The position numbers were made by a program, and so were the translations under genes. Below, in pieces: positions 9,534-28,529 of a stretch of 42,843 nucleotides of DNA (the first letter of the stretch is position 1; every line of letters starts with the position of its first letter). The stretch is from Candidatus Pacearchaeota archaeon (GTDB lineage: Archaea > Nanobdellota > Nanobdellia > Pacearchaeales > GW2011-AR1). A model generated the notes under the pieces. That model was not told where the DNA came from and made no database searches. It was given only the letters and a program-made list of their open reading frames with translations. The stretch lies in NCBI GenBank assembly GCA_016181895.1, contig JACOYL010000006.1:1-42843 (forward strand), read 5' to 3'.

Positions 9534-12500
9534 TCAGGGTTTGATTATTATATCCTGCCCTTGATTTGCTATGTAATAATCTCCTTCCGGGACGGAATTG
9601 AGATATTTTTTATTTGCGTCCAAAAATGCGTTTTTGTTTCCAAAATTCTTTTTAACATCCTCAATATCTTTATCCCAAACAGCATCAAGATTGCAATTCC
9701 TTGGACTCAAAACATAATACACTTTCGGCAAAACGCTCGTGTCGCATTTCCATATTTTATCTTTAAGCTTTAAACCGTTTTCATAATCAAGTATTTCTTG
9801 TGCTTGAGGACCCAAATTCGTTCCATACAATTTATTATTTTTTCCACTGTCTATTGAAAATCCAATTGGAACTCCTTTATCATCTATGTAAATTATCGTA
9901 TTATCTTCAATGTATTTCTTCACATAATTCTTGCCATCTATCTGACCTTGTTCTGATTCGGTAATATAACTATTATCTCCTATTTTAACAGTTTTAGAAA
10001 TTCTTATCTCTTCTTTTCCTATTCTCTCCACGACAATTTCCGCATAAGCATCCGCGCGAAGCATTATCAATTCTGCTTTTTGGCTATTCAAGAAAGCCTT
10101 TGCAATCAAGTCTGTTGTTATGGAACTTATTTTGATATTGTTATCAAGGTTCTTCAATTTTTCAAAATCTCTTTTGAAATCCTCGAAATATTGTCCTTCC
10201 TCTGTCATTTGTTTAACAAAATTCTCTCCTGTTGCTTTCAGCGTCGCATCTTCAATTTCCGTCGATGTGATTGCTTTTTTTACGCTGTTTTGATCAAGAT
10301 AGCATTTCAAGTTTCCTGAACTGTCGCATTTCCCGACTCTAACCCATCTGCTTCCCTCTCCGTCTGCTTTTGCATCAGTGCCTCTTCCCGGATTGTCTGT
10401 CGAGCAAACCCGAACAATTTGCTGCGCATAAAGATTTGGATCGACATATTGTTGCAATCCTGATTGCAAGTTTGGATTTGCAAAACTGTAAAGGCTTGGA
10501 GTTCCGGAAACACATTCTGATTCTGTTTTTATGTCTGTCTGTTCTCCTTGTTGTTTGGAATACAAGTCCTGCAAATAATCCAATCCAAAATCAGTGCTTA
10601 CTCTGTTGAATCCGCATTCTTCCTGCCCGTTGACATTGATGCACAATTGCTGGTATCCGCTTGGAGCTGTGAAGTCTCTTGTCTCACTCGCGAGTTCTCC
10701 AGGAGGAATGAATCCGTCGGCAATTTGTATTGTCTGCGCGTAATTGAAAAACGAGCCTGTTTGCGGAGTTTTCAAATAAACGCGATAAAAGACTCCGGCA
10801 TTTCTCACACCGCTTGTCTGAAGCGTCCCCTCTCCTGCAAAAATGTGATAAAACACTTTGTATCTTGAAATCGGCGGAACAGTTGATGTTGTGTAAGGGC
10901 TTTCGGAAAACCATGCAGTATATTGCGGCGGCGACTCGGGCTCTATCAACGAATCAAAGAAATTCACATCGGGATAACTTGCGGAAACAAAATTTCTGCA
11001 GACAGCTTGTCCCACCTCTCTTATTATTCCCGTCTTGAACGCCTCGAAGGAAGCCGCGCCGTAATAATTTGTCATGTAATCAATCGACCTTTGAGCATTC
11101 TCCCATGAGGAAGCAACTCCCAAATACTCGCCTCCTCCTCTTCCTGTTTGTCCTCTTATTATTTCAAATATTTTCGGGACAATCACGCCTGCGACAGGCT
11201 GCGCCTGGCTCCAGAAGAAATCACACAGGTAAATGCTGTGAATCTCGTCGCAGATTCCGACTGTTTTTCCTGTTTCCAAATTTGTCTGCAGGCAATCTCG
11301 ATAATTTTTCTGCACAGAGACAAATCCGTCGATTCCAGCTTTTATTCCCGACAAGCATACTGGAACTGCAATATTTTCCCTTGCATTCGGCAAACATAGA
11401 GCCGCGCTTCCGATGATTCCGGATTGAATCACGTCGGGAACAGTAAATGTTCCTCCCAAATTACAACGGCTTGAAGGACAAACAACAGGGTCGCATGCAT
11501 TGAACAAAATCAAGCATTCTTTCGGCGACATGAAATCTTGGCATTGAATGTCAGGCACTCCAATGCTTGGTTCCCCGACGGAAATAAATTCATTCAGTAT
11601 GCTTACTCTGCTGACTCCCTGCGAATGCTGCCTCGTCGCATCCTGAACAGCTTCCATCGCGTTTGAAACCAGTCGCGATGTTTCGCTTGGATTCAATCCA
11701 GGAAATGTTCCTTGAACTTGTTGCAAACCAGGATTGAAATTTCTGCAGATGTCGTCTTTCAATTCGGAATAAAATTCCTCCCTTCCGTTTTTGCCGACGT
11801 TGCAAATGTAGAAACTTCTTATCTGTCCCGATTCGTCGTAAGCCCTTATTCCCCCTTTGTCTGTCAAAAGTCTCGCAGCCGCGCCGGGAATCAATTGCTT
11901 TGTTCCGACATACCATCCGTTGGATGTATCAAAGGGAACAATCGCGGGCAATCCTGCATAAGGCGAAGTCTCAAAATATCTTACCTTTGGTTCTTTGAAT
12001 TTGTTCTCGTAAGAAGTTCTGTCGAATTGAATGAATTGTGAATAAGAGCCTTTTATTTCCTTGAAAATTTCTTCGCTCTCTTGGATTTCAACGATTCCTT
12101 TTTCATCAAAAATCTTGTCTATACTGAATCTTTTATCACCTATTGTTTTCAGTGTTACAAGATATTCCTTGTTGTTAAAGCTGATTGGCTGAAAAAAAGT
12201 ATTTGCAGGAATAGAGTTAAAATTTCCGGCGGAAGTTTTCAATCCATCATAAACCTCTTCTATTTGCCTTTCTCTTGTATGAACCCTGTACGAAAAGTCC
12301 TCGAAACCGCTTTTTTCCAAATTCTCCTGCGCCTTCTGAAGTTTTGCAAAATTTTCCGAATTTGCTTTTATATCCGACAAAAGGGCATATCTCTTCTTCT
12401 CGGCAAGTTTTTTCATTTCACCGCTTGGATTTGAACTAATAATCTGATTCAATCTGTCAATATCTCTTGCCTGGCTTAAAGTTATTCCTCCGTCGTCATA

Positions 12501-18050: not shown

Positions 18051-18135
18051 GGAAACAAATTAAAAGATTTTTAAATACCTCTCTTTTGTAATTTGAAGGG
18101 AAGATTACGCGAAAGAAACCATAGGTGTCTTCGCT

Positions 18136-22403: not shown

Positions 22404-23453
22404 ATGTTCAAATTTTTCAAGGAAAAGATAAAAAGCTGGGCTTCAAAAATCTCAAAAGACAAGAAGGAAGAGACGAAAGAGATAGAAGAAAAATCAGGGA
22501 AACGCGCAAAAAAATTAAAAAAAGAGAAAAAAATCCAGATTCCCGAGGAAGTTGAAGGGGAAGAGGGAAAAAGTTTCTTCCAAAAAATCGGTGAAAAGAT
22601 TTCAAAAATTCGGATTTCGGACAAGGAATTTGAAATATACAGTGAAGAACTGAAAATGCTTCTTCTTGAAAATAATGTCGCCTTTCATGTTGCGGAAAAA
22701 ATAATAGGGGATTTGAAAAAGAAAATCGTAAATCAGGAATTTTTGAAAAAGGAAGTTGAGGAACAAATCAAAGAGGCATTGAAAGACATAATAGAGGACA
22801 TTTTGATAGAACCTTTCGACGTTGTGAAAAAGATAATGGAAAAGAAGGAAAAGAAAAACGAGCCTTATGTGATTTTGTTCTGCGGTATAAACGGAAGCGG
22901 AAAAACAACCACGATTGCAAAAATCGCCGAGCATTTGAAAAAAAGATATGTCTCTGTCGTTCTCGCCGCGGGCGACACATTTCGCGCGGCTTCAATTGAG
23001 CAATTGCAAAAACATGGAGAAAGAATCGGAGTGAAAGTCATCTCGCATGATTACGGCTCTGATCCTGCTTCTATTGGATTTGACGCGATAAATTACGCGA
23101 AAAAAAATAATGTCGAAGCTGTCTTGATTGACACCGCTGGAAGAATGCATACGGCGAAAAATCTTCTTCGCGAAATGGAAAAAATCACAAGGGTTTGCAA
23201 GCCTGATTTGAAAATTTTCATAGGGGAATCAATTACGGGAAACGATGCTGTCCAGCAAGCCGAGGCTTTCAATGAGGCGATTGGAATTGACGCGATTGTT
23301 CTCACAAAAGCAGACATCGACGAGAAAGGTGGAACGTCTTTAAGCATTGGTTATGTTTTGAGAAAACCGATTCTTTTCCTCGGCACGGGACAGGAATACG
23401 ATAAAATAGAAGTTTTCGACAAGAAAAAGTTTGTTGAGAGATTGGGGTTATAA
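22404..23453 (+). CDS. ftsY: SRP receptor GTPase FtsY
   Basis: GINGSGKTTTIAKIAEHLK, AGDTFRAASIEQLQ, DTAGRMHTAKNLLREMEKI, TKADIDEKGGTSLSIGYVLRKPILFLGTGQEYDKI. Confidence 0.97.
   Translation: MFKFFKEKIKSWASKISKDKKEETKEIEEKSGKRAKKLKKEKKIQIPEEVEGEEGKSFFQKIGEKISKIRISDKEFEIYSEELKMLLLENNVAFHVAEKIIGDLKKKIVNQEFLKKEVEEQIKEALKDIIEDILIEPFDVVKKIMEKKEKKNEPYVILFCGINGSGKTTTIAKIAEHLKKRYVSVVLAAGDTFRAASIEQLQKHGERIGVKVISHDYGSDPASIGFDAINYAKKNNVEAVLIDTAGRMHTAKNLLREMEKITRVCKPDLKIFIGESITGNDAVQQAEAFNEAIGIDAIVLTKADIDEKGGTSLSIGYVLRKPILFLGTGQEYDKIEVFDKKKFVERLGL
23418..23453 (+). repeat. Direct repeat copy 1 (ftsY 3' end)
   Basis: gacaagaaaaagtttgttgagagattggggttataa; the last part of a 28-nt exact repeat (23427-23454). 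Confidence 0.9.
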
Positions 23454-23526
23454 AACCCGATTATTATAATTATAGATAAATTTATATAAACAAAACATTT
23501 AAATATATTAGAAATGTAAATTAATT

Positions 23527-23766
23527 ATGGCTACGATAACTATTAATCTTGATGATGAACTAAACGAAAAATTTAGGGACATTATTAAACAAAAAATAGG
23601 GGAAGGCAAAGGCACAATTGGCAAGGCGGTAGAAGAAGCCATAGTTTCCTGGATTGAAGAAAAAAAGCAGGCGGAAATAGCACACGAAATGATGAATCTG
23701 ATGGAAAAGGGTTTTGAAATGGGAAAAATAAAAGTAAAAACAAGAGAAAGCCTGCATGAAAGATAA
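23527..23766 (+). CDS. Ribbon-helix-helix-like antitoxin (VapB-type)
   Basis: MATITINLDDELNEKFRDIIKQK start; overlaps the downstream PIN toxin by 11 nt. Confidence 0.75.
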   Translation: MATITINLDDELNEKFRDIIKQKIGEGKGTIGKAVEEAIVSWIEEKKQAEIAHEMMNLMEKGFEMGKIKVKTRESLHER

Positions 23767-24187
23767 GATATCTTTAATTGATTCAAACATTCTGGTTTAT
23801 GCTTTCGATTCTTCTGAAAAGTCAAAACATAAAAAAGCAAGAGAATTGTTGAAGAAATGCTGGAAAGGAGAGCAAAAATTTGCGGTATCCACGCAAAACC
23901 TGTCCGAATTTTTTGTGAACGTAACAAAAAAAATAGAAAAGCCAATCTCAAAAGAAGACGGAGCAAAGATAGTAAACAGCATATTGGAGTTTGAAGGATT
24001 TCTAAAACTGGAGCCAAAAAAAGAAACGATATCAAAGGCGATGATTATTTCCATAAGAAACAATATGAACTATTGGGATTCGCTGATAACAGCCACAATG
24101 ATAGAAAATGAAATTTTTAGTGCTTACACGGAAAATGCAAGGGATTTTAAAATTGACGAGGTAAAGATAATAAATCCTTTTTTATAA
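23756..24187 (+). CDS. PIN-domain ribonuclease toxin (VapC-type)
   Basis: LIDSNILVYAFD, STQNLSEFFVNV, YWDSLITATMIEN: PIN acidic residues. Confidence 0.9.
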   Translation: MKDKISLIDSNILVYAFDSSEKSKHKKARELLKKCWKGEQKFAVSTQNLSEFFVNVTKKIEKPISKEDGAKIVNSILEFEGFLKLEPKKETISKAMIISIRNNMNYWDSLITATMIENEIFSAYTENARDFKIDEVKIINPFL

Positions 24188-24224
24188 TATGTAGAATCTG
24201 CAAAACCTGTTTCTGTTGATTAGA

Positions 24225-24260
24225 AATAAAAAGAAGTTTGTTGAGAGATTGGGGTTATAA
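24225..24260 (+). repeat. Direct repeat copy 2 (duplicated ftsY 3' end)
   Basis: aataaaaagaagtttgttgagagattggggttataa; aagtttgttgagagattggggttataaa (24234-24261) is identical to 23427-23454. Confidence 0.9.
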
Positions 24261-24289
24261 ATCATCCTGGACCAACACCTGGAAATTAA

Positions 24290-28148: not shown

Positions 28149-28529
28149 TTATTTCTTTAATTCAATAACACTAAAACCAAATTTTTCATAGATGCTGTCT
28201 GAACTTATTATTTGGTCATTTTCTGAACAAAAAGACATTAACAGGCTATCAAATATAGTGGCTCCTTTCTCCATAAAATTACAGGCTCTGAAAAAGATAC
28301 CCCAGGAGAAATTTTCCAATTTTGCAATTCTTGAAATCTGCGCCAAAGTCTCTTTTACCGGAATTTCTTCTCTTTTGCATATCATCATAATTTCTGTTAT
28401 AGTAAAAGGAGAAACAAATAGATTTTCTTTATTTTTCTCATAAATTCTTTTGGCTTTTTCTTTTAGCCAGTCTGAATCTTTCATCAAAGCCAGAAAGAAA
28501 TCAGTATCCGCGTATATTTTTTGTGGCAT
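28149..28529 (-). CDS. PIN-domain toxin (VapC-type)
   Basis: IYADTDFFLALMKDSDWLKEKAKRIYEKN..VSPFTITEIMMIC..TIFDSLLMSFC. Confidence 0.82.
   Translation of the reverse strand: MPQKIYADTDFFLALMKDSDWLKEKAKRIYEKNKENLFVSPFTITEIMMICKREEIPVKETLAQISRIAKLENFSWGIFFRACNFMEKGATIFDSLLMSFCSENDQIISSDSIYEKFGFSVIELKK

Follow-up and report, generated by a model that had tools for sequence, protein, structure and literature searches.

The ftsY 3′ end and a vapBC-type islet

The 42,843-nt stretch of DNA analyzed here (the window) constitutes contig C9 of an archaeal assembly (G000) that totals 736 kb and is ~90% complete. Its relatives with named records belong to Candidatus Pacearchaeota and other DPANN archaea. 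The 28-nt sequence AAGTTTGTTGAGAGATTGGGGTTATAAA is present in the window as an exact direct repeat at positions 23427-23454 and 24234-24261, and corresponds to the last 27 coding bases of ftsY plus one base. The ungapped repeat block is 34 nt with 94% identity (Table 1), and the copies are separated by 807 bp from start to start. The 28-mer occurs twice in the 736-kb genome, even when three mismatches are allowed, and the probability of its chance occurrence anywhere in the window is ~2e-11 given the local composition. The initial annotation had described this exact repeat and its spacing around a vapB/vapC-like pair, and had regarded the second copy as an ftsY 3′ end and not as a coincidence. 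Both points were borne out: the pair is intact, the repeat is unique to the locus within the genome, and the ftsY gene is preserved. The FtsY C-terminus reads DKKKFVERLGL*, as in relatives. The further proposal that both copies encode (D/N)KKKFVERLGL* holds firmly for KFVERLGL*, whereas the (D/N)KKK extension, which is A-rich and matches at 8 of 12 bases, is weak.

Only vapB and vapC are located between the repeat copies, in agreement with the earlier view that the islet lacks an integrase. The antitoxin ORF, which lies just upstream of the toxin ORF and overlaps it by 11 bp, gave weak matches to DUF6290 (E 0.018) and to the NikR model (E 0.07), none of which was above the Pfam cut-off. The vapC product scored 29.1 bits against PF01850 (cut-off 23.6) and matched TIGR00028 below the cut-off (E 2e-5). 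Residues D9, E51, D108 and E126/D130, as read from the sequence, are plausible catalytic acidic residues in this protein. From the domain and operon structure we infer that the two genes function as a toxin-antitoxin (TA) module of the VapBC type, with the left spacer presumably acting as the vapBC promoter. The islet is followed by a D-Ala-D-Ala-ligase-like ATP-grasp gene, an MFS transporter gene and SRP54. A further PIN-domain gene (PF01850, E 1e-9) is located on the minus strand right after SRP54 (window positions 28149-28529).

Searches with PADLOC yielded no match, and Rfam models applied to the spacers and flanks recovered tRNAs only. Homologues of VapC were sought as indicators of a common cassette: the closest in 96 relatives displayed 35% identity and a scan of genome contigs revealed none. 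An empty site, in which one tail is joined to ATCATCCTGGACC, was sought in the sole congener (G001), which possesses a single copy with a different downstream gene order and was uninformative.

Table 1. Coordinates of the islet features in the window and of copies of the dispersed ~90-nt element at other loci.
Feature	Position	Strand	Evidence
Target gene ftsY (SRP receptor GTPase) with intact 3′ end	22404..23453	+	PF00448 SRP54 GTPase domain, E 3.3e-70
Left tail copy, functional ftsY end (28 nt exact from 23427)	23421..23454	+	
Left spacer, 72 nt, TATA-like stretches (e.g., tttatata near 23481)	23455..23526	+	Sequence
vapB-type antitoxin ORF, 79 aa, ribbon-helix-helix-like	23527..23766	+	Weak matches only
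vapC toxin ORF, 143 aa, PIN domain	23756..24187	+	PF01850, E 1.7e-6
Right spacer, 40 nt, vapC stop to second tail	24188..24227	+	
Right tail copy, displaced ftsY 3′ end (28 nt exact from 24234)	24228..24261	+	
~90-nt element	L056:1097-1194		
~90-nt element	L056:6902-6984		
~90-nt element	L079:1032-1126		
~90-nt element	L084:1080-1163		
~90-nt element	L107:1273-1360		
~90-nt element	L009:1394-1495		
~90-nt element, also L159, L163 and others			

Second ftsY tails in related archaea

A second FtsY C-terminus was sought at approximately 100 ftsY loci of related archaea, with a peptide located further upstream in FtsY as the control. A second tail was detected at eight loci (G000, G032, G102, G135, G143, G177, G193 and, weakly, G175), a rate that is slightly inflated because G102, G135 and G143 were noticed first by a pattern search. 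The two tails were spaced by 36-807 nt, and thus by no more than 0.8 kb in all cases, with several kb of downstream sequence available at most loci. The inserts differed in content: the window carries vapBC and G143 a different ORF, four genomes have a structured element of ~90 nt, and G193 has almost nothing.

The last 12 ftsY codons of G102, G135, G177 and G193 share 90% of third positions, compared to 49% for relatives with a single copy. In the 12 codons just upstream of the tail, 53% of third positions are shared in both groups. As the third-position excess is confined to the tail, the imported segment in these four cases is exactly the last 39 nt.

Duplicated gene ends around other toxin-antitoxin modules

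A scan of 712 gene ends, with control segments alongside, identified 11 tail copies vs. one for the control segments. Apart from ftsY, the matches were to bud32 (twice, with short spacers) and to SRP54 of G039, in which a complete relBE pair is positioned between the two SRP54 tails. In a scan centered on TA modules, 119 TA loci that included the window were compared with 1000 random windows of identical geometry at a repeat score of at least 18. Flanking direct repeats were present at 23 TA loci vs. 25 control windows (Fisher p 1.8e-11, uncorrected for shared ancestry), and were distributed among both toxin types (13 of 68 RelE and 10 of 51 PIN loci). About half of the repeats around TA modules lie away from annotated gene ends, and some of the flanking repeats may represent paralogous or intergenic sequences that do not belong to the tail-bracketed class. 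Nearly all of the genomes compared are assemblies of uncultivated organisms, with one per species.

The search for additional duplicated gene ends flanking TA modules, which had been suggested in the initial annotation, uncovered such modules at several genes. The relBE genes are bracketed by tails of topA (G043) and of ORFs of 525, 407 and 684 aa, and further gene-tail cases in the toxin-centered scan involve ORFs of 399, 265 and 250 aa. The genome of the window itself harbors a second vapBC islet (L248, G000:C23:24168-24524) of 678 bp at a gatB-type 3′ end, where the tails read EIIKKYVK* and EFIKKYAK*. Small arrays also occur: the aspS end in G117 (C23; L280 and L211) is followed successively by vapBC, an aspS tail, relBE and a short third tail, and three tails surround an HTH gene and relBE in G021. 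The proposal that an element enters ftsY and restores its end was upheld insofar as ftsY is a recurrent target, but the process is not specific to this gene, with SRP54, topA, gatB, aspS, hsdS and others used likewise.

A gene start or promoter region is duplicated instead of a tail in L256 (G030), where vapBC is interposed, and in L250. A duplicated gene 5′ end also was observed in L296 (G205), upstream of position 10793, preceding the intact gene and with an ORF between. Judged by this arrangement, L296 and L256 are islet-type footprints at gene starts.

A second set comprised 71 RelE loci from GTDB genomes of widely sampled archaea, several of which were shared with the 119-locus set. Repeats were found at 18 of these loci vs. 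one of 71 when the right arm was inverted. Three Candidatus Methanoperedens genomes (L313, L319 and L360) carry relBE beside duplicated tails of 39-109 nt that are hsdS-like (type I restriction), an identity derived from the peptide and not from a profile. An unbiased 443-kb sample of 392 genes added a single clear gene-tail copy, that of gyrB in G030, together with one copy of a gene start; a C-terminal match in this sample (L301) was excluded as a tandem paralogue. Duplicated tails of gyrB and bud32 with 18-40 nt between the copies were noted at L305 (G030), L107 (G117) and L077 (G188), and possibly are sites from which cargo has been lost. Five TA loci of Escherichia coli K-12 (yafQ, yafO, mazF, yoeB and yhaV) showed no such repeats.

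Divergence of the paired tails and the route of entry

If a target-site duplication simply drifted, ~20% of codon differences between the two tails would be synonymous. Tail pairs detected at the nucleotide level instead displayed 27 synonymous vs. seven nonsynonymous codon changes (27/34), and those detected at the protein level 50 vs. two (50/52), the latter biased by the detection mode. Hand counts for L309, L313, L319 and L385 were less extreme (~15:11), but still exceeded the null value. The differences are mainly nonsynonymous in the gatB-type pair of G000, the 399-aa ORF of G205 and some later cases. The mainly synonymous divergence indicates that, in most cases, the two tails had evolved separately as functional gene ends of different lineages before being joined. 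On this codon evidence, the second tail is derived from the gene of a relative and is not a drifted target-site duplication. The initial annotation had described the differences in the window as mostly synonymous, a pattern that is not strong in the window alone but is strong across the other loci. Because the window tails are identical over 28 nt, we infer importation at this site, in preference to simple duplication, from the behavior of the class.

The most probable reading, to which we assign a probability of ~0.6, is that the islet is a compact TA cassette that inserted at ftsY together with its own gene tail, and that it exemplifies a general archaeal class. The cassette would consist of a foreign tail, promoter, antitoxin and toxin, inserted directly upstream of the final ~30 nt of ftsY. 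The gene would thereby receive the cassette-borne tail and stay functional, and the native tail would be pushed downstream to the site that it occupies just after the toxin stop codon. Entry would occur by recombination at short homology in gene tails, or less often gene starts, perhaps via a circular or linear intermediate that carries the tail; VapBC and RelBE modules, and occasionally different small cargo, would be delivered in this way, with TA genes bracketed by direct repeats of 20-110 nt as the outcome. Recombination between tails would release the cassette and return the gene to a single end, and the toxin, which would act as an RNase, would select for retention of the islet. Recombination may be performed by a trans-acting site-specific recombinase or be ordinary short-homology recombination of a TA circle. 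The latter is slightly favored because visual inspection revealed no motif common to the junctions and the targets are varied. The islets examined in detail lacked an integrase, and no excised circle, same-species empty allele or recombinase was found. A broader proposition, which we advance tentatively and at less than even odds, is that archaeal TA modules are minimal mobile elements that pass from genome to genome as small cassettes with a copied target-gene tail as the sole attachment site, mobilized by host or trans-acting recombination and able to form arrays at one gene end.

Alternatively, an island with a tyrosine recombinase may have entered the ftsY 3′ end, restored the gene via attP, and subsequently lost everything except the addictive TA genes; a remnant of a larger islet had been one option in the initial annotation. 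Direct repeats of 20-110 nt at restored gene 3′ ends are the textbook attL/attR signature, tyrosine recombinases are encoded by relatives, and TA genes are common island cargo. However, the ~90% complete G000 assembly gave no match to PF00589, and none of the ~100 ftsY loci has tail duplications spaced by 1-7 kb that would denote large flanking elements. Moreover, the islets are uniformly tight, with right-hand copies in the 119-locus set mostly no more than ~75 nt from the toxin stop codon, and TA modules also occur in arrays with tails between them. Derivation from a larger integrase-bearing element therefore is unlikely, and that part of the earlier interpretation was not supported.

Insertion of the TA genes by a transposase or by break repair, with duplication of 20-60 bp and selection for retained gene ends, would account for the varied targets, for the intergenic and gene-start cases (L256 and L250), and for identical copies such as those in L345 (60/60), L232 (23/23) and the window (28 nt). 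This explanation is considered about as improbable as a decayed island: the 27:7 ratio of synonymous to nonsynonymous changes departs from the null value, the ftsY group imports exactly the tail, which points to a foreign lineage for one of the two copies, and repeat length is too variable for a single transposase. Misjoining of mixed strains during assembly or chance repeats in AT-rich DNA are very improbable sources of the pattern since, although nearly all assemblies are metagenome-derived and some weak repeats are AT-rich, dozens of separate assemblies are involved with repeat lengths that are not tied to k-mer size, the tails differ from each other at synonymous sites, repeats are far scarcer in random windows and with inverted arms, and the window repeat has the low chance probability given above.

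Relationship to known systems

Genomic islands with tyrosine integrases reside at gene 3′ ends, where attL and attR flank an insert downstream of the restored gene. A tail-carrying TA cassette at ftsY resembles these islands in that the direct repeat is the 3′ end of the gene, the gene is restored, and the insert is downstream. Unlike the islands, the islets are devoid of an integrase, are only ~0.6-0.9 kb, and use many targets for one kind of cargo.

By analogy, the nearest published signature is that of the mORF gene hybrids of fungal mitochondria, which are known for atp6 in Allomyces and for atp6, atp9, cox2 and nad3 in Glomus sp. (PMC3630166). In these hybrids, a foreign C-terminal sequence is inserted in phase along with an endonuclease ORF, the native C-terminal sequence is displaced downstream, and the two differ largely synonymously (PMC3630166). 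The islets similarly combine a foreign in-phase tail (in the four-genome ftsY group, whereas the window tails are identical over 28 nt), cargo and a displaced native tail with mainly synonymous differences. In contrast to the hybrids, in which a homing endonuclease drives mobility, the islet cargo is an RNase-type toxin and antitoxin, and the islet tails are shorter (20-110 nt) and located on archaeal chromosomes. The window insert contains no homing endonuclease, just the RHH-like and PIN ORFs, and the archaeal islets are not considered members of the mORF-hybrid group because this enzyme is absent.

Integron cassettes and CALINs include TA cassettes in archaea (PMC9668308). The islets share with them small TA cassettes, occasional arrays and the absence of an integrase from the locus, but their sites are the tails of adjacent host genes and are locus-specific, apparently unlike the attC family. 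Solitary type II TA pairs in bacteria occupy non-random places, where they are inserted individually between conserved genes (PMC7167474). TA pairs are likewise placed singly between genes in the islets which, unlike those insertions, display a footprint of the insertion mechanism, none having been reported there. A 2020 review described the integration mechanism of TA systems as unelucidated (PMC7167474). No description of tail-bracketed TA cassettes was found in the open-licence literature, where absence is no proof. The islets offer a readable insertion scar that would give the donor tail, the target and the cargo boundary, and so make the question of TA insertion testable both from sequence, through identification of the foreign tail, and experimentally, with a tail-carrying circle. 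TA modules may be self-contained mobile units in genome-reduced archaea.

A dispersed structured element

In the ~90-nt element, which has no match in Rfam, a covarying hairpin with the loop CGGAGGCAATTA is accompanied by a second hairpin and possibly by a pseudoknot. It was present in 36 of 191 genomes of the family with up to ~20 copies each (Table 1). The end of the element frequently coincides exactly with a gene start or a tRNA; other copies are situated in frame within genes, such as those in ogt at the same site in G162 and G134. This placement resembles that of the Rickettsia palindromic elements, and an initial reading of this ncRNA-like spacer element as an intron was dropped in view of the in-frame and gene-start insertions. 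G000 contains no strong copy, and a weak match (19.3 bits, E 0.026) is located directly 5′ of tRNA-Val at window positions 18070-18134.
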